From: Gamarada debralockiae
Lineage: Eukaryota > Ascomycota > Leotiomycetes > Helotiales > Hyphodiscaceae
Assembly: GCA_002803225.1 (NCBI GenBank)
Contig: NXFV01000107.1
Span: 1-64,000 of the forward strand
Direction of reading: 5' to 3'
DNA: 64,000 nt
The notes under the pieces: generated by a model
The model's database searches: none
What the model was told of the DNA's origin: nothing
The model's input: only the letters and a program-made list of their open reading frames with translations
Translations under genes and position numbers: made by a program
Shown here: one piece after another, positions 13,222 through 59,783 of the stretch
Layout of the letters: every line of letters begins with the position of its first letter
Numbering within the stretch: position 1 is the first letter of the stretch

Positions 13222-14712
13222 CTACCTTTCAATGACGGTAGCCGCCTTGCGGAGTCTATTCATGACAGCCGCAGCAATACCCCCCTCGTCCTCGATGCCT
13301 TCGACAAAAATGACATCCACACCCCTTTGATCCAACTCCCTGAGTGCAGAGAATAGACCATGCGCGATAGCCTTTGTCTCTTTTCCAAGAGAAACCTCAA
13401 TGACATTCGCGATATGCTGATCAGTTGACCTGTGGGACCATTCGCCGTCGCTGAGAAGATCGTTTCCCAGCCAAAGCTCTCCTTGCTCCATCCCAAAAGC
13501 ATTCTTAGTCTCGATGGGCTGCGCGTGAATGACCTTTGTGGAGATATCCTGGCGATCCTGGCCATGTTGGTCGTCCCAACTCCATTTCGCCAAATTCAAC
13601 CCTGCCCAGTTACTCCAATGCCGCGTTGAGACGATCCCAATGAGAGGCTTCCTGTCCAAGGTTTTGTAGCCAAGATGTTCCATCTTCCCAGCTGGCGCAG
13701 AGACGATCCTCCACACTTCCAACGGTATGCCTGTATTTGCCTTTCTTCTATCAGCAGCAGCTTCGTACAGCACAACCTTCGCCTTCGGACTGTAATGCTT
13801 GTATTTCATCCCCGGTGCCCGTGGTGCATGACTCCCAACTTCACTGGCGTCTTTATACCCCTTCACCACCTTCTCCCAGCCCTCACACTCTCTTATCCGA
13901 TCGATGCTCACTCCTCCCGGTCTTAACACAACAGGTGGATCACATAATCCATCCACAACAGTGCTCTCCACACCCACCTGACAAGCTCCTCCATCCAATA
14001 TGATCTCAATCCTCCCATCCAAATCATGCAACACATGCTGTGCAGTCGTTGGGGAGGGTTTAGTCGAAGCATTCGCAGAAGGAGCAGCGAGCGGTACACC
14101 AGCGAGATGGATCAGTGAAAGAGCGAGTGGAGACTCAGGCATACGTGCGCCGAACGAAGGGAGCCCAGCTGTGACCTCTGGTGCGAGCTTGCTCGGAGTT
14201 GGGTTTGGGAGGAGGATCGTGAGAGGGCCGGGCCAAAACTTCTTTATTAATGGCTTGTAGATCTCTGGTATAGAATCTGGTGCAGAGCCATTTGTGTGTT
14301 TGGGAGAGGATAAGAGGCTTCGTAGCATCGTGAGGTCGCAGACGTGTATGATGAGCGGATTGTCGGATGGTCTGCCTTTCGCTTTGTAAATCCCCTTCAC
14401 GGCATCACTCCTCGTTGCGTCTGCACCGAGGCCATAGACTGTTTCTGTGGGGAAGCCAACTGGTATGCTGCTGTGCTTGAGATGGTCTGCGGCTTCGTGA
14501 AGGCTCTCGAGGCCGGATGTAGGGAGGATCCATTTCTCGAGTGATTCTGGGTCATCGAAATGTCCAAGATCGTTGGTGGCGACGGGTAGGATGCGAGCCT
14601 TGAAGACACCGCCGTTGGGATGAGTGGACCCCATCGCGAAGTATTGTTTGAAGATTCGGGGGAGGTTTGTGCAGATCTTTGAGGGGATTTGGACTGCCAG
14701 CGTGATGTTCAC
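13222..14712 (-). CDS. SUA5: Threonylcarbamoyl-AMP synthase (Sua5/YrdC)
   Basis: Makes L-threonylcarbamoyl-AMP from threonine, bicarbonate and ATP, the first step of t6A37 tRNA modification. It is a single 496-codon exon. The YrdC domain covers roughly residues 75-270: PVGFPTETVYGLGADATRSD, the K-x-R nucleotide motif in KAKGRPSDNPLIIHV, APSANASTKPSPT and a GGACQVGVESTVVDG loop. The C-terminal Sua5 domain ends in NRLRKAATVIER. A second in-frame ATG lies at 14634. The 26 residues before it contain Lys and Arg but no acidic residue, as in a mitochondrial presequence. The first start could therefore make a mitochondrial form and the second a cytosolic form. The partner enzyme Qri7 is encoded at 58.3-59.8 kb. 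Confidence 0.95.
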   Translation of the reverse strand: MNITLAVQIPSKICTNLPRIFKQYFAMGSTHPNGGVFKARILPVATNDLGHFDDPESLEKWILPTSGLESLHEAADHLKHSSIPVGFPTETVYGLGADATRSDAVKGIYKAKGRPSDNPLIIHVCDLTMLRSLLSSPKHTNGSAPDSIPEIYKPLIKKFWPGPLTILLPNPTPSKLAPEVTAGLPSFGARMPESPLALSLIHLAGVPLAAPSANASTKPSPTTAQHVLHDLDGRIEIILDGGACQVGVESTVVDGLCDPPVVLRPGGVSIDRIRECEGWEKVVKGYKDASEVGSHAPRAPGMKYKHYSPKAKVVLYEAAADRRKANTGIPLEVWRIVSAPAGKMEHLGYKTLDRKPLIGIVSTRHWSNWAGLNLAKWSWDDQHGQDRQDISTKVIHAQPIETKNAFGMEQGELWLGNDLLSDGEWSHRSTDQHIANVIEVSLGKETKAIAHGLFSALRELDQRGVDVIFVEGIEDEGGIAAAVMNRLRKAATVIER

Positions 14713-39699: not shown

Positions 39700-40856
39700 T
39701 TGCTAGTTATTTTCTTTACAGCAAGGCTCATCGTCGAAGCTGCGCAGTCCTCATAGTGTCGTATAATCTCCCCCGGTTGCACCTCCTCGGCTTTGAGAGC
39801 TTCACATTCCCTTCGCACCTCGCTGAGATTACTCTCCAGCTGCTGGGTGTAGTCGCTCTTGCCCTAGATCTCGGACGTGTTCTGTTTTTACCGAGTCGAT
39901 CCTGACTGCCAGAGCCACTTTCTTTTCCTCGAGCGCTTCCACGTCTTTCTCCAAAGATTCATTTGTCCTAGCGAACTGCTCCTAGCCTGATAGAAACAAG
40001 TTCTTGTTGTTTAAAGATTGCATCTTAGCCTGCAGTTTCCCCGGTTTCACATGAACCGCTCTCTGATCCTGTGAGTTCTGAGATATGTTTTCAATCTATT
40101 TGAGATTCTGATTGGCTTTCCTGAGCTTCTCACTGCCTTTTGGAAGTCGGCGATTGTGTTCGAGTCTTTTGTGGCCTGGTTCTTCCAACTTTGTCTCGTC
40201 TGGCTCAGGTCGTACTCAGTCCAAAGGACCTTGCTTTCTTCCCTTAACGATTCGACGGAGCGGTATCCAGAATTGGAGGGTGATCTCCATGTTTTGTAAT
40301 TCGACTCAATTTTGAGGGTTATTTCGTATCATGCGTTTAAGGATTTGAGTTGGGTATCTGAAAGATGGACTTCCGTCCTCGACTTTCACTTTATTGACAG
40401 GGGCAGTCAGATGAGATCTGTGCTCTTGTTGGTTGCTATGGTAACAGTTTGTTTACATATATCTCGGGTCCTGGCGGCCACGATTCTTCCTCCTTAGATA
40501 TCAATACATACATGATTTTGCCTCACAATATCGTCTGGTTCGACAGGGGCTGACTGGTAGCGGGCCGGAAGACCACGGCTGAACGGTTGGGTGGGCATTT
40601 GCGGACCTGGACTTATGGGGGGTGGGATAATTTCTGGGGACCATGATAGTGGATGTAGCTTGAGTGAGGTGAGAGTAGTAGTAGGAAGGAGGATGATTTC
40701 GTTGTTGCCAGCCGTGAGTGCGCAGTAGGAGAAAGAACTTTCGTAATTCTCATTGCGAAGGCAAAGATATGATGAAGGATTTTCGAATTCGGAAGGTGTC
40801 GCAGTCTGTTGCTTAAACCAGCTGCAGATTTGCTTGTTGAGAAGACGGTCAATCAT
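39700..40856 (-). pseudogene. Decayed coiled-coil gene
   Basis: An ATG at 40856 opens 120 codons (MIDRLLNKQICSWFKQQ, a middle with PTTTLTSLKLHPLSW, and a proline-rich PPPISPGPQMPTQPF) before a stop at 40494. Downstream on the same strand, broken frames carry clear coiled-coil sense such as QAKMQSLNNKNLFLSG, then a TAG, then EQFARTNESLEKDVEALEEK. More stops follow. This is a coiled-coil gene that has lost its frame, matching its intact neighbours in strand and style. An unusual intron set cannot be fully excluded. Confidence 0.55.
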
Positions 40857-49095: not shown

Positions 49096-50200
49096 GTGAT
49101 TCTCGAGGATGACGAGATAATTACCCCCTCTATTGAAGCCGTAGCCGCGTCCGTCTTAATTGACGCTGGTGCTGATTCAACTACTGAGCTGAACAAGCCG
49201 ACCGATACTCTTAGCCAGGATGCATGGTATGATGTTGAGGATGGCGTTGTCCTCGAGGGGGATGCCTTAGCTCCTATACTCGCTCAGGACCATCATCGCT
49301 CGCCTGGGTTACTGTAAAACCAGATCGACCAACATAACGATGGAACACCCAATGTACCTTTGGACGGGCCAGGGGCCGAAACTTTGGCTTAACCGTTGGA
49401 TGAGGATGGCGGACGATAGTGTGGGAAAAATATATCTTAGCTCGAGAGGGATACGCTACTGGCTTTCAAAGAACAAGAGAACTTGTCGTCGGCTGCTCGC
49501 AGCTCCATACTCCCTCCCTGAGCCGACGCACCATCAAATGGACCAAGAACAGGATCAGAGTAGAACTAGCTGTGGCGGGCTAGAGGAGCTGAGACATGGC
49601 TCTCTGCTTCGTAGTCAATATCAGGAGGAGGCGGAACACGAAGATAAGCGGAGGCGGAGCCGATTCCACTCGACCAGCAGCAGCTACAGGAGACAGTAGT
49701 ACATGCGGTGAAGGAGGTCGAAGATGGCGGAAGTAATCCTGAGCAAGTAGAACAGGCCGAAAAGCGGCCGCACTAGGATGAGAGGAACGAGGCAGGTAGT
49801 AACATCCACCTGTCCGAACGTAGCGGTTCCGGTCACAACATAAACGATGAGAACGACGAGGATGATGAGGAAGACGAAGACCCACGGCCTGTAAAGCGGC
49901 GAAAGCGGGATTCGTAAGTTATCTGCCAAACTCCTGTAGAGGTCGAACACTGCGTTTCACAAAAGTCTCGAAGTCCCTCCGCCGCACGAGAGTCTGGACC
50001 TGTTGCAGAATATCGAGAGTGGCCCTTTCAGGCTTCCTTAAACGCACGAGGATCGGGAATGACACAACATACAATCTCGAGTTCAAATTGCCATGTACCT
50101 TAGAGCGACTTAACCTGCCAATTGAGGTGCTATGGATATTTATTTGCTCAGTGTATGCCGCTTGCCCGTGGGTGCCGCTCATCCGTGGGTGCTGATTGTC
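49096..50200 (+). pseudogene. Remnant of a repeated fungal ORF
   Basis: In one plus-strand frame, readable segments are separated by stops. They start with ILEDDEIITPSIEAVAASVL. An acidic stretch NDENDEDDEEDEDPRPVKRR follows, ending in a basic motif and a stop. A little downstream another frame reads GFLKRTRIGNDTTYNLEFKL and LNLPI. This style (acidic tail, KRRK, then RIGNDTTYNLEF) is familiar from multicopy fungal ORFs of uncertain, probably transposon-associated, nature. That assignment is from memory of the style and is tentative. The stops and frame breaks mean it is inactive. Confidence 0.45.
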
Positions 50201-50373
50201 GTGTGTGCCACTCGCCCGGGTGTGCTGATCGTTAGAATAAGTATAACCAGATATTGCTCTACTTTTGATTTGGCCATTATTTTACCAAATCACCTTTCTT
50301 CGTTTCTATAATCGATTAGACTATATCAACTTTCCAATCCTTTATCTAGGGTTCAATCAGGTCCTATTTAACA

Positions 50374-51770
50374 ATGCGTGTCCAAGCACTGGTCCTCGGG
50401 TTGATGGTCGCACTAACAGTCGCTTTGCCAACGGACTTGCCAGTGAATTTGAAGCAATCACTTGAAGCTAGAGTAAGTGTCCTAAGACTTTATAGTCATA
50501 GGCATCGATGATGAGTACCAATGGCTGACTGCGCGCCGGATGGTGGAATAGGATGTAAGTGATCTTGCACTGAGTTTTGACTAGCTGTTATTATAATAGA
50601 TGGCTGACTGTGCGCTAATGGTGGAATAGTGTGTAAGTGATCTTACCCTCTATTATATTAGTAGATAGCTGACTAGATACTGGATGGCGGAATAGCCTGT
50701 AAGTGATCCTACGTCCTGTATTGACAGGCTGTTATGGTAGTAGATGGCTGACTAGGTGCTGGATGAATGGAATAGGATGTAAGTAATCTTACAATTAGTT
50801 TTGATGAGCTGCTATGAGATGGCTGACTAGGTACTGGATGGTGGAACAGGATGTAGGCAATCCTGCGCTCTGTATTGACAGGCTGTTATAGTGGTAGATA
50901 GCTGACTAGGTGCTGGATGGTGGAATAGTGTGTAAGTATCTTACACTTAGTTTTGACGAGCTGCTATGAGATGGCTGACTAGGTACTGGATGGTGGAATA
51001 GTGTGTAAGTAATCTCGCCCTCTTGACAGGCTATTATAATAGTAGATGGCTGACTAGATACTGGATGGTGGAATAGTTCGTAAGTGAACCTGCGCTCTGT
51101 ATTAACAGGCTATTATAGTGGTAGATGGCTGACTAGGTGCTGGATGCTGGAATAGGATGTAAGTGATTCTTACCCTCTATATTAATAGGCTATTAGAGTA
51201 GTAGATAGCTGATTAGATGCTGAATAGGCAGTAAGTGAACCTGCGCTCTGTATTGACAGGCTATTATAGTGGTAGATGGCTGACTAGGTGCTGGATGCTG
51301 AAATAGGGTGTAAGTGATCTTGCCCTCTATATTGGCAGGCTATTATAATGGTAGATGGCTGACTAGATGCTGGATGGTGGAATAGTTCGTAAGTGAACCT
51401 GCGCTCTATATTAATAGGCTGTTATAGTGGTAGATAGCTGATTAGATGCTGAATAGGCAGTAAGTGAACCTGCGCTCTGTATTGATAGGCTGTTATAGTG
51501 GTAGATAGCTGACTAAATGCCGGATGGTGGAATAGGGTGTAAGTGATCTTGCCCTCTATATTGACATGCTATTATAATAGTAGATGGTTGACTGGGTACT
51601 GGATGGTGGAATAGTGTGTAAGTGATCCTGTACTCCATATTGATAGGCTATTATAATGGTAAATGGCTGATTAGGTGCTGGATGATGGAATAGTTCGTAA
51701 GTGAACCTGCGCTCTGTATTGACAGGCTGTTAGGTAGTAGATGGCTGACTGTGTATTGGATGGGAAGTGA
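50374..51770 (+). CDS. Candidate ultra-fragmented gene: secreted Cys-rich peptide from sixteen single-codon microexons
   Basis: Exon 1 (50374-50472, 33 codons) encodes a signal peptide, MRVQALVLGLMVALTVALP, and a short pro-region ending SLEAR. It stops at a GTAAGT donor. Seventeen intron-like units of 63-79 nt follow, modal length 76. Donors are GTAAGT in 16 of 17 (GTAGGC at 50853), branch sites are CTGAC/CTGAT-like, and acceptors are AATAG in 15 of 17. Between units lie exactly three bases, at 50552, 50630, 50696, 50776, 50850, 50929, 51002, 51077, 51156, 51228, 51307, 51386, 51457, 51536, 51615 and 51694. These read GAT TGT CCT GAT GAT TGT TGT / TTC GAT GCA GGT TTC / GCA GGT TGT TTC, then TGA at 51768. 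All are phase 0. The predicted product has 49 residues with four cysteines. No homologue is known to me. Splicing is inferred. Confidence 0.7.
50473..51767 (+). repeat. Tandem array of 17 intron-like units, about 63-79 bp each
   Basis: Units share a core reading roughly GTAAGTGAwCyTGCsCTCT, then TATTGACAGGCTrTTATAr, TGGTAGATGGCTGACTAGGT and GCTGGATGGTGGAATAG, with point changes and small indels. Unit boundaries coincide with splice sites. The first unit differs in its 5' half and the last has GGGAAG instead of GGAATAG, as expected for array edges. The three bases between units are the only unconstrained positions between two strongly conserved blocks. Confidence 0.9.
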
Positions 51771-53272
51771 ACCGAACCAAAAGCTTCAAAGGCAAACTTT
51801 GGGTGCAATGAAAGGTCTAGGAGTGATAGGATCGGAGATGCTTGTGAAGTGAGAGAAAAGTCTCGTTGAGGGTTTTGTCCACAGTGTGGTTTCCCCTTAG
51901 CCGCGGACGAATGTCGAGACTAGGATAGAGAATAAATTGGGCTGTGAAACCGCTTCCTATACCGTGATTCATACTGCCGGCTCAGTTAGGAATGTATTCT
52001 GTATGATCAGACCTCCTTCTGCGCGAATTATGGGATTCATCCAAAGGAATTGCCTCGTTTCGTAGGAGCGGGAGGGTAAGTCACGGTATGAGTCGCCATT
52101 ATTCCATCGCCTTCTACAACCTTCCTTCCTCCAAGATAAAAATAACATCACTTCTTAATCACATGTCTATAGAGGTAACCTTCTAGAACTTCCAATATGC
52201 ATACTTCTTCGTATTCAGGGACCATCACTCGAGGCAAAATTCTCGTGCTCTCTTATGTATACTACCACCAATTCGACACTCTCATCTGATGACGAAACAT
52301 GTCCTTGGTGTCGACTTTTGTGCGAGGTCTAGGCTCGACTTGGCGGTCTCTAAGGCATTGCTCGACGGTGGAGGCGGGGTTCTAACTTTTGTGTTAGGCC
52401 TATCTTGCGTGTCTAGGCTTTGAATCAAGCCTGGTCTTGGGGTACGATGCAACAACGCGGTCCAAGAATGGGTAAATGAGCTAGGCCGCGGGCCCTCAAT
52501 AGGCTCCATATTCCCAGATCATTAACGGAGCATATTGCGTATGAACAAGGGAGGCAAAGCCGAAGCCAAGCTATCTTCATAAGGTGCCAATATTCGTAGA
52601 GGATCTCAAACGCCTCGTAGGCATAGTCAGCCCGCAGCTGCCACAAGCCTGTGAGGGTGGCCGAGGTAAATGGCCCGTAGAGTGCGTGATACAGACGCTA
52701 GTGGGTGGTGGGCCTGTGTATGTTAGTGCCACCGCCAATAACTGAGCGTCTGCAATCAATATTCTCGCTCGTAGGAGAGGACTCTATATGTCTTATTCTA
52801 AGTTGAATGAGAGTTGAAAGCCACACGAATGGTGTTAAGAGACGGAGTTGTCTTGCGTGATAGTGTATTCGCGTGTTGCAAAAGAGGAAGGAGTGTCGTT
52901 TTAATGTTGTGGTATCGGACTTTAATTCCTAGGGAGACGTTGGCCCTCAGATGTTACTTTTTAAGTAGGTAGAAGCTCTTGCAGGAAAAGGGTCGGGAGG
53001 AAGACAAAGCGCTGCAAGGGCTACAGTGACTATCTGAAGACTGCCCAGTCGCTTTCATCTTTCGTTAACATAATGGAATATATAGATCATTCACTTAAAC
53101 TTGGGAGAGACTTTTGTAGAAGATTGTCACCGTATACATTTCAGGCACATGCGTTCCACCAGCTGTATGTCAAGGAGCTACAAAATCCGCACTGAAGTCT
53201 GCATTTCCCAAGTCTGTTCTTCGTGACAAATGTCCAGAAGAACGCAAAGACAAGTACAAGCCGTTTTCCAGT
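51771..53272. other. Intergenic, no gene recognised
   Basis: Minus-strand open frames at 52282-52759 overlap in different frames without clear sense. Possibly decayed repeat. No RNA gene or arms were found. Confidence 0.45.
51931..51936 (+). terminator. Possible polyadenylation signal (AATAAA)
   Basis: An exact AATAAA about 160 bp after the predicted TGA of the microexon gene, at a plausible 3'-UTR distance. Confidence 0.35.
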
Positions 53273-58304: not shown

Positions 58305-59783
58305 TCATTTCAAAGGAATATTTTCCCAATTAGCACCCTCCCCCAACTTAACCATTCTCCACCCATCCACCCCAAGTATTCCCCCATCTTCAGCATTAGG
58401 GTCAATAGCCCACTTCCTCAACGGCATAACATCCAAGCTGGTCCTATACCCCGCATCCCACATCTCCATTCCAGCCCAAGCAATCATAGCGGCATTATCC
58501 GTGCAAAACTCAACAGGGGGAAACACCAGCTCCATTGCCTCGTGCCCATTGACATCCAATGCCGTTCTGATTATATGCTTGAGGTACTGATTGCTCGCCA
58601 CTCCACCAGAAACAACAAGGGTTTTCAGACTAGATAGTTGAGGGGATTTAAGAGCGAGAGTGATCCGGGATGCGAGATGTTCGAAGGCTACACGCATCGT
58701 CTCTCGTGCTAGCAATTGTCGTTCTGCATTGTCCATGGTAGGGTTTTGCTTCAAGAAGCGTTTGACTGAACTGCCTATTCCGGCGAAGGAAAACATGCCA
58801 TTGTATGTCTTGGCTTCTTGTGGTGTATGGTTCTGTAGTGGAGGAGTAATTGACCAATTTGGTGACTTCGATTCTCCCTTGCTAGACGATTGCTTGTAGC
58901 TATATTGTGCCTCTCCATCTGGAAATGCAAACTTCTCCAGCAGAGGCCCGTAACTCGCGCCTTGTGTCTCCTTCAACACATCTTCAAGAAGAATGTCTCG
59001 TGCACATTTGTCAATCATGTCTCCAACAGCGATGTCCGTCATATTTGCCAGAACTTCGTGGTCACAGAGACCTTTGGAGTGAACCAACATCGTATGTCCC
59101 CCAGACACAAGCAGCGTGAGGAAGGGGAAAGCGGGATTGGCAATGCGTTGATCGCCAGTTTTATAGATCGCGGAAACCAGTCTAGGTGTCAGAGCATGTG
59201 CTTGCATATGGTTGACACCCAGCAATGGGATCTGCCACGCAACAGCCAGTCCCTTCGCAGTATCCAGCCCAGTTATCAGATTCGCCCTCATGCCTGGCCC
59301 TCTCGTAACCGTTATGAAGTCCGGTTTCTTCCTGCATATTTCCTTCTCATCACGATCTTTTGGGAGATAGAGCCCATTTCTCAGGTGTCCACTCTCTCGA
59401 TGTATCCTGACCTTGTAGGGAGGGAGCTTCTGCAGCGCCTTGTCGATGAGTCTTGCGAGGTTTTTCTGATGGGATTCGTGCGCAACTATGGGATGCACTC
59501 CTCCATATGCTTGATTATCGGAGATGATCTTCTCATGGAAGCGCAGGACTGCGGCGTTCTTGTGATGCCGGTCGAGAATGGCGACGCTGGTATCATCGCA
59601 GGACGTTTCAATTGCGAGGGTAATGAGGTTACGGCGCCGTACGCAGCGTTGGATCGGAGGATGGAAGCGCCTGATGAGAAGACATGATGGCCTCATCAAG
59701 CTGGAATTGGTCGGTCGTTGGGTGATAGAGGTTGAAAGGGGAGCCAGAGGTTGAATAAAAAATGTAGCTCCAGCCACACTCAC
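58305..59783 (-). CDS. QRI7: Mitochondrial tRNA N6-threonylcarbamoyltransferase (Qri7/OSGEPL1, TsaD family)
   Basis: Transfers the threonylcarbamoyl group from TC-AMP to A37 of ANN-decoding mitochondrial tRNAs. It is an intronless 492-codon gene. The N-terminus is Arg-rich with no acidic residue before the domain (from Met 59696: MRPSCLLIRRFHPPIQRCVR), a good mitochondrial presequence. The ASKHA-fold signature opens TLAIETSCDDTSVAILD. Also visible are VTRGPGMRANLITGLDTAKG, the metal-binding H-x-x-x-H in VNHMQAHALTPRL (usually HMEAH, here Gln), LVSGGHTMLVHSKG and FCTDNAAMIAWAGMEMWDAG. Its partner SUA5 is encoded 44 kb away at 13.2-14.7 kb. Confidence 0.95.
   Translation of the reverse strand: MSVAGATFFIQPLAPLSTSITQRPTNSSLMRPSCLLIRRFHPPIQRCVRRRNLITLAIETSCDDTSVAILDRHHKNAAVLRFHEKIISDNQAYGGVHPIVAHESHQKNLARLIDKALQKLPPYKVRIHRESGHLRNGLYLPKDRDEKEICRKKPDFITVTRGPGMRANLITGLDTAKGLAVAWQIPLLGVNHMQAHALTPRLVSAIYKTGDQRIANPAFPFLTLLVSGGHTMLVHSKGLCDHEVLANMTDIAVGDMIDKCARDILLEDVLKETQGASYGPLLEKFAFPDGEAQYSYKQSSSKGESKSPNWSITPPLQNHTPQEAKTYNGMFSFAGIGSSVKRFLKQNPTMDNAERQLLARETMRVAFEHLASRITLALKSPQLSSLKTLVVSGGVASNQYLKHIIRTALDVNGHEAMELVFPPVEFCTDNAAMIAWAGMEMWDAGYRTSLDVMPLRKWAIDPNAEDGGILGVDGWRMVKLGEGANWENIPLK

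Follow-up and report, generated by a model that had tools for sequence, protein, structure and literature searches.

An array of predicted one-codon exons in a putative secreted-peptide gene of Gamarada debralockiae, one of several such arrays in the genome

Anatomy of the array

The window analysed here, a stretch of 64,000 nucleotides on contig C835, carries a gene in which a signal-peptide-like first exon is followed by 17 intron-like units and 16 spacers, each spacer being exactly 3 nt long without a single deviation. The elements of this gene are listed below by their positions in the window.

50321..50328, + strand: TATA-like stretch CTATATCA, presumed promoter, picked out by eye
50374..50472, + strand: exon 1 (99 nt, 33 codons), signal-peptide-like, MRVQALVLGLMVALTVALPTDLPVNLKQSLEAR, with a phase-0 end on GTAAGT
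50473..50551, + strand: intron 1 (79 nt); the repeat unit can be aligned with its 3' half
50552..50554, + strand: predicted one-codon exon 1, GAT (D)
50630..50632, + strand: predicted one-codon exon 2, TGT (C)
50696..50698, + strand: predicted one-codon exon 3, CCT (P)
50776..50778, + strand: predicted one-codon exon 4, GAT (D)
50850..50852, + strand: predicted one-codon exon 5, GAT (D), with the weakest donor, GTAGGC, after it
50929..50931, + strand: predicted one-codon exon 6, TGT (C)
51002..51004, + strand: predicted one-codon exon 7, TGT (C)
51077..51079, + strand: predicted one-codon exon 8, TTC (F)
51156..51158, + strand: predicted one-codon exon 9, GAT (D)
51228..51230, + strand: predicted one-codon exon 10, GCA (A); the intron before it shares a deletion with the intron before exon 13
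51307..51309, + strand: predicted one-codon exon 11, GGT (G)
51386..51388, + strand: predicted one-codon exon 12, TTC (F)
51457..51459, + strand: predicted one-codon exon 13, GCA (A)
51536..51538, + strand: predicted one-codon exon 14, GGT (G)
51615..51617, + strand: predicted one-codon exon 15, TGT (C)
51694..51696, + strand: predicted one-codon exon 16, TTC (F)
50555..51693, + strand: introns 2-16, each of 63-77 nt, and the interleaved one-codon exons, forming a ~79-nt tandem repeat that also has higher-order periodicity at 150 and 229 nt
51697..51767, + strand: intron 17 (71 nt), acceptor GAAG
51768..51770, + strand: stop TGA, the opening codon of the last exon
51931..51936, + strand: AATAAA, a possible polyadenylation signal

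A sequence-only reading of this DNA had described exon 1 followed by 17 introns, sixteen sense triplets in phase 0 (D C P D D C C F D A G F A G C F) and a TGA directly after the array, and the coordinates bear out all three: exon 1 ends at 50472 on GTAAGT, the units stand head to tail, the triplets read GAT TGT CCT GAT GAT TGT TGT TTC GAT GCA GGT TTC GCA GGT TGT TTC (50552-51696), and the TGA at 51768-51770 lies behind the GAAG acceptor. From the first to the seventeenth, the introns measure 79, 75, 63, 77, 71, 76, 70, 72, 76, 69, 76, 76, 68, 76, 76, 76 and 71 nt, with all three modulo-3 values represented. Every triplet has AG before it and a donor after it, GTAAGT at 15 of the 16 and GTAGGC at one; over the whole gene GTAAGT makes up 16 of 17 donors and GTAGGC the other, and all 17 units end in AG. 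Of the 17 copies of AGNNNGTAAGT in the window (1.22 expected), 15 fall inside the array. Exon 1 ranks in the top 5 of the 929 open ATG frames of the window for signal-peptide likeness (a hydrophobicity score, not SignalP), and the product is a putative effector-like, secreted peptide.

A YTRAY branch-like site lies 9-45 nt from the 3' end of all 17 window introns, and each of them uses as its acceptor the first AG that comes 9 nt or more past that site; as background, 381 of the 4338 AGs on the + strand of the window, counting those of the array, satisfy this rule as well. The weak signals of the gene are the one GTAGGC donor and the last acceptor, GAAG. Exon 1 could in principle be joined to an exon past the array, and the next 900 bases hold many AGs that open phase-0 tails of at least 15 residues, three of them with an upstream branch-like site; none was convincing, and this architecture was rejected.

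Several features of the surrounding DNA may be recorded here. Short tandem repeats with periods of 17 and 33 lie at 50156-50229, about 150 bases 5' of the ATG, in the presumed promoter. Two further short signal-peptide-like ATG frames begin at 40411 (+) and 3832 (-), the latter of which may encode a CFEM-like protein. Genes for Sua5 (13225-14712, -) and TsaD (58308-59783, -), which we take to be enzymes of one tRNA modification, t6A, lie 44 kb apart; among the best 120 of 7998 matches, the highest-scoring relative of the Sua5 protein from a named species is that of Hyphodiscus hymeniophilus (73% identity), and environmental sequences reach 79%. This one protein would place the fungus, probably, in the order Helotiales.

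Recurrence of the architecture in the genome

The genome (54.3 Mb, 1112 contigs) was searched with a pattern of two successive 3-nt exons, which returned 36 matches, 7 of them single and 29 clustered on six contigs (13 on C835, which holds the window, 6 on C258, 4 on C16, 1 on C17, 3 on C347 and 2 on C332). A backwards-read control of this pattern, available as a total without positions, returned 30 matches compared with 36, so the number of matches is by itself uninformative and clustering alone counts. With the pattern otherwise equal, a 4-nt spacer gave 6 matches at 6 separate places and a 2-nt spacer 9 matches at 8 places, neither forming an array. A background sample of 186,560 bases (15 loci together with the window, its array excluded) contained no 3-nt spacers and 0-2 of each other spacer length between 0 and 12 nt; the six array stretches contained 14, 7, 5, 2, 3 and 2 spacers of 3 nt and 0 or 1 of each other length. 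Counting the window array, the genome has five or more such loci, and at no fewer than four of the others the architecture occurs with other introns. The argument from uniqueness made in the sequence-only reading is better recast as an argument about a class. A DNA search in which the best candidates were scored matched the window unit and exon 1 to their own locus only. The other array loci are as follows.

C258:20800-24900, - strand: HET-domain gene; 13 predicted one-codon exons separate exon 1 from the HET part and keep phase 0 throughout
C16:85143-85558 and C17:1-241, - strand: second HET gene, its array cut by the contig end
C571:18000-20300: kinase-type gene, five predicted one-codon exons
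L038 724-1300 (C347) and L037 (C332): array stretches of two paralogous genes

In the C258 gene, exon 1 has 53 codons and is in phase 0; fourteen introns and, between them, thirteen one-codon exons (AEEPDFPRRRDEM) lead to a phase-0 exon beginning INDTWQYD, with a Pfam HET domain (PF06985) downstream of the array (E 3e-29, 102.7 bits, cut-off 22.5); for its N-terminal 200 residues, none of 405 candidates reached E 1e-3. At C16/C17 about ten triplets are visible (one by eye), six of which, on C16, read TAT GAT TAT GAT TAT GAT. The contig break there is probably an assembly failure in the repeat, and a search for the 5' exon of this broken array found none. The exon after the array on C16 is open from its first codon, and this gene also has a HET domain (PF06985, E 2.1e-30, 106.4 bits, cut-off 22.5). 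On C571 a kinase-like exon (Pfam E 1.3e-17) is followed by the one-codon exons TAT GAG TTC CCC AAA and a phase-0 exon, the array having phase 0 on either side. Its introns of 54, 64, 73, 58, 76 and 65 nt, the 73-nt one being GC-AG, are mutually unrelated (mean alignment z 0.0, 15 pairs); the one-codon exons are therefore the constant element and the repeat is not, and an array is possible without a minisatellite.

The exons that follow the arrays resemble one another, that of C258 matching C16 at 31-32% identity (E 8e-6 and 1.4e-5) and C571 at 34% identity (E 8e-6 and 5e-6), with both matches beginning no more than 3 residues from the exon starts. C16 and C571 gave no direct match to each other. 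Judged by these alignments, the post-array exon of C258 is homologous to those of C16 and C571. A weak match at C536:10900-12300 (25%, E 0.1), by eye one ordinary intron without a one-codon exon, is a possible distant relative. The genes on C347 and C332 are paralogous, encode by eye a secreted-looking protein (MRIQI...) and have four and three one-codon exons, the first of which differs at all three bases (AGT vs GCA); at its fourth site C332 has lost the acceptor in register, and it seems to be losing its array. A G/A-rich tandem repeat with a 16-nt unit (by eye) lies 3' of the C347 array at about 1556-1640 of L038.

When five loci are pooled, a branch-like site is found in 50 of 51 introns and 49 of 51 use the first AG that lies 9 nt or more beyond it, the test being partly circular for 11 introns of C571 and C347, whose borders were picked by eye beforehand. 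The exceptions are one of 14 C258 introns, which has no YTRAY site, and one of five C347 introns, which skips the first AG. Across four loci, 43 triplets contain no stop (chance 0.046). For the window array we agree with the sequence-only reading that the lack of stops is weak by itself, with P 0.32 for 16 triplets at the composition of the array.

Variation of the triplets and origin of the arrays

The sixteen units of the window were aligned without intron 17, units 10 and 13 being placed in register by script, and the same register was used for the pair counts and the tree. Pairwise difference in the triplet is 0.625 compared with 0.202 in the introns, the highest of 71 three-column stretches of the alignment (runner-up 0.48), and the codon columns taken singly give 0.59, 0.78 and 0.51, where 76 intron columns average 0.20. 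The pattern is the same at C258 (11 of 13 units; 0.648 vs 0.196, first of 67) and at C16/C17 (8 of about 10 units; 0.500 vs 0.109, first of 69), where the counts omit the first two C258 introns, which are not repeat-like, and the partial units at the C16/C17 contig ends. On a tree of the window units built from introns alone, the codon columns change 7, 8 and 5 times, compared with a maximum of 4 in any of the 76 intron columns. Transitions and transversions on this tree number 7:13 in the triplets and 74:24 in the introns (Fisher P 0.0009), and since the units are related and exchange sequence, such P values are only indicative. The codons differ in 103 pairs, and in every one of these the difference changes the amino acid. 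The lone codons are thus the fastest-changing letters in the repeat-type arrays tested, and this pattern, in which the bases between conserved splice signals evolve fastest, is unlike the prediction for a neutral repeat. Triplet hypervariability and the existence of the other loci, not the absence of stops, are the main and strong evidence on the nature of the array. Intron differences counted over pairs are transition-biased in all three arrays (window 1239:454, C258 514:195, C16/C17 150:54).

Introns within each of the three repeat arrays are near-copies (z 11.9 over 10 pairs in the window; 10.9 and 13.6 for one pair each in C258 and C16), while likeness between arrays has a mean z of -0.0 to 2.6, with single pairs up to 5.0 (window vs C347). 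In the window and C258, the similarity of two introns is uncorrelated with the identity of their codons, and neighbouring units are no more alike than units far apart; this independence is not what simple tandem duplication predicts. Each amino acid is nevertheless written with a single codon, which random draws from the codon usage of five window ORFs reproduced 26 times in 40000 for the window, 97 in 40000 for C258 and 2690 in 40000 for C16/C17, so that the codons were probably copied. These two results point opposite ways on the origin of the arrays. Intron conversion combined with selection on the codons would be one way to reconcile them, as has been proposed for genes of the Hessian fly in the account given in PMC2955719. 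Exchange of units as the route of growth and loss is supported by the higher-order repeats, by the deletion common to units 10 and 13 and by the single codon that stands for each amino acid.

Could the array be a minisatellite inside one long intron? The splice motifs would then be inherited from an intron-derived unit, splicing would take out the whole array as one 1.3-kb intron, or else the gene would be dead, and the triplets would be meaningless. The ~79-nt tandem repeat with its higher-order periods is indeed present, sixteen stop-free triplets arise by chance in 32% of cases, and the splicing of the array is itself a prediction from sequence. A neutral repeat, however, should vary evenly and gives no reason for a transversion-rich peak at exactly the three bases between acceptor and donor, yet in three arrays the spacer columns differ from the rest. 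The same architecture occurs at C571 with dissimilar introns, the arrays of the C258 and C571 genes link phase-0 frames, and if the last acceptor were joined to exon 1 across 1.3 kb, TGA would follow that exon immediately. We therefore rejected a plain minisatellite on the behaviour of the codon columns and the non-repeat introns of C571, and regard this explanation as highly improbable.

An origin by intron multiplication is compatible with one-codon exons. Introners are multiplied spliceosomal introns, near-identical and dispersed over many genes, and copies of one intron could have invaded an ordinary exon at each codon boundary, leaving old codons between new introns. The independence of intron similarity from codon identity and the lack of closer kinship between adjacent units in the window and C258 speak for such an origin, but the single codon per amino acid (26 and 97 of 40000 draws in the window and C258) makes copying of the codons probable, and we know of no mechanism for phase-0 insertion at every third base. 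Units of the three repeat arrays, moreover, matched only their own loci in the DNA search with the best candidates scored, and dispersed introners were rejected on this ground; we consider an introner-type origin unlikely. Also compatible with real one-codon exons is regulated use of the codons as cassettes, with transcripts including different ones and yielding a mixture of peptides that differ by single residues, as proposed for the micro-exon genes of flatworms. All internal exons are 3 nt long and the frame would survive skipping, but GTAAGT at 16 of the 17 window donors points to constitutive use, and we hold regulated inclusion to be possible but rather doubtful.

Set against these alternatives, the window array very probably consists of sixteen real one-codon exons between short spliceosomal introns and belongs to a class of such arrays. 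The claim of consecutive one-codon microexons made in the sequence-only reading gains support from the distinct evolution of the triplets, from recurrence at other loci with other introns and from the lack of arrays with 2- or 4-nt spacers. What the sequence shows directly is the anatomy of the array with its phase and splice signals, the restriction of arrays to 3-nt spacers, the hypervariable codons and the recurrence at other loci.

Known systems and a possible mechanism

A micro-exon gene has been defined operationally by at least 7 exons, of which at least half are micro-exons (shorter than 70 nt and divisible by three) with a run of at least four, according to PMC7653826. If spliced as predicted, the window gene has 18 exons, 16 of them 3 nt long and in one run of 16, and it would be a micro-exon gene in an extreme form under the definition given in that source (PMC7653826). 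The micro-exon genes of flatworms, in which exons from 3 bp have been reported (PMC10526429, PMC7653826), are by this comparison the closest known kind. Those of schistosomes and tapeworms resemble the arrays in their runs of tiny exons divisible by three and, in schistosomes, in their secreted products (PMC10526429, PMC7653826). In contrast, the schistosome exons described there span 3-81 bp and their introns reach 5 kbp, whereas here all array exons are one codon long and the introns 54-79 nt; the present arrays also differ in being fungal, in occurring in HET and kinase-type genes as well and in having near-copy introns within three arrays. A 3-bp exon has reportedly been described in a Drosophila gene (PMC7392893).

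The SSSGP genes of the Hessian fly likewise combine conserved noncoding parts with a hypervariable mature coding part, for which positive selection and concerted homogenisation have been proposed (PMC2955719); there whole paralogous genes were compared, whereas the present comparison sets unit against unit inside a single gene, one codon at a time. The ratchet points of recursive splicing in Drosophila are similar in their tandem acceptor-donor pairs and stepwise removal, but as described in PMC8605326 they have acceptor and donor juxtaposed, mostly in long introns, whereas here three bases lie between and are predicted to stay in the mRNA. A zero-nt ratchet point (AG directly joined to GT) was rejected because three bases separate acceptor and donor at 16 of 16 sites. 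Stwintrons are another case of unusual multiplied spliceosomal introns in Pezizomycotina, but in the account of PMC9024468 an internal intron splits a splice element of the external one, whereas the introns here are consecutive; with 17 of 17 window units having their own donor, branch-like site and acceptor, a stwintron was rejected. Xlr2 of Trichoderma virens was presented in 2024 as a functional microexon in a filamentous fungus, none having been described before according to that source (PMC11121469), and it stands alone, as a single regulated microexon of a gene for a transcription factor. Among the matches listed from the open-licence literature, titles and the beginnings of abstracts contained no array of one-codon exons, fungal or other.

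Fungal introns are recognised across the intron, and a 3-nt exon between short introns is therefore not impossible a priori. We suggest that the pre-mRNA would be read by intron definition, each 60-80-nt intron offering a donor, a CTRAY-type branch site and a first usable AG. A 3-nt exon could hardly be held from both sides together, which makes a 5'-to-3' order likely; each removal would set the next donor three bases past the growing exon, a ratchet leaving one codon per step. The predicted product of the window gene would be a secreted peptide made of a signal sequence and DCPDDCCFDAGFAGCF. In searches that for so short a peptide reach close relatives only, its 49 residues had no PDB match and shared three 5-residue words with no database protein. 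Array size would change through exchange of intron-plus-codon units, always with the frame kept, while duplication or conversion would homogenise the introns and selection for new residues would presumably drive the lone codons apart. Splicing, its order, selection and the role of the peptide are what we infer from the arrays.

More tentatively, and with somewhat less than even confidence, we propose a codon-cassette system in this fungus and perhaps its relatives, in which a hypervariable segment of secreted and HET-type proteins would be encoded at one residue per exon, with homogenised introns and with residues singly added, removed, reordered or replaced without risk to the frame. The codons would outpace the introns through strong selection or through mutation aimed at the gap, and a 5'-to-3' ratchet would read them out.

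From the sequence evidence we conclude that these are spliceosomal arrays of one-codon exons in secreted and recognition-type genes, with splicing predicted. If they are spliced as predicted, we know of no protein gene for which a more extreme splitting into exons has been proposed: segments of about 5-16 residues would be encoded at one exon per residue, and the arrays would offer a test of how the spliceosome handles serial 3-nt exons. The related exons of C571, C258 and C16 lie behind 5, 13 and about 10 one-codon exons, which makes the origin of the arrays directly testable. We know of no gene finder that calls runs of 3-nt exons, and such protein stretches, if real, would therefore be invisible to present gene prediction. 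If true, the arrays would also show directly how the proteins of secreted and HET-type genes can evolve one residue at a time without endangering the frame.
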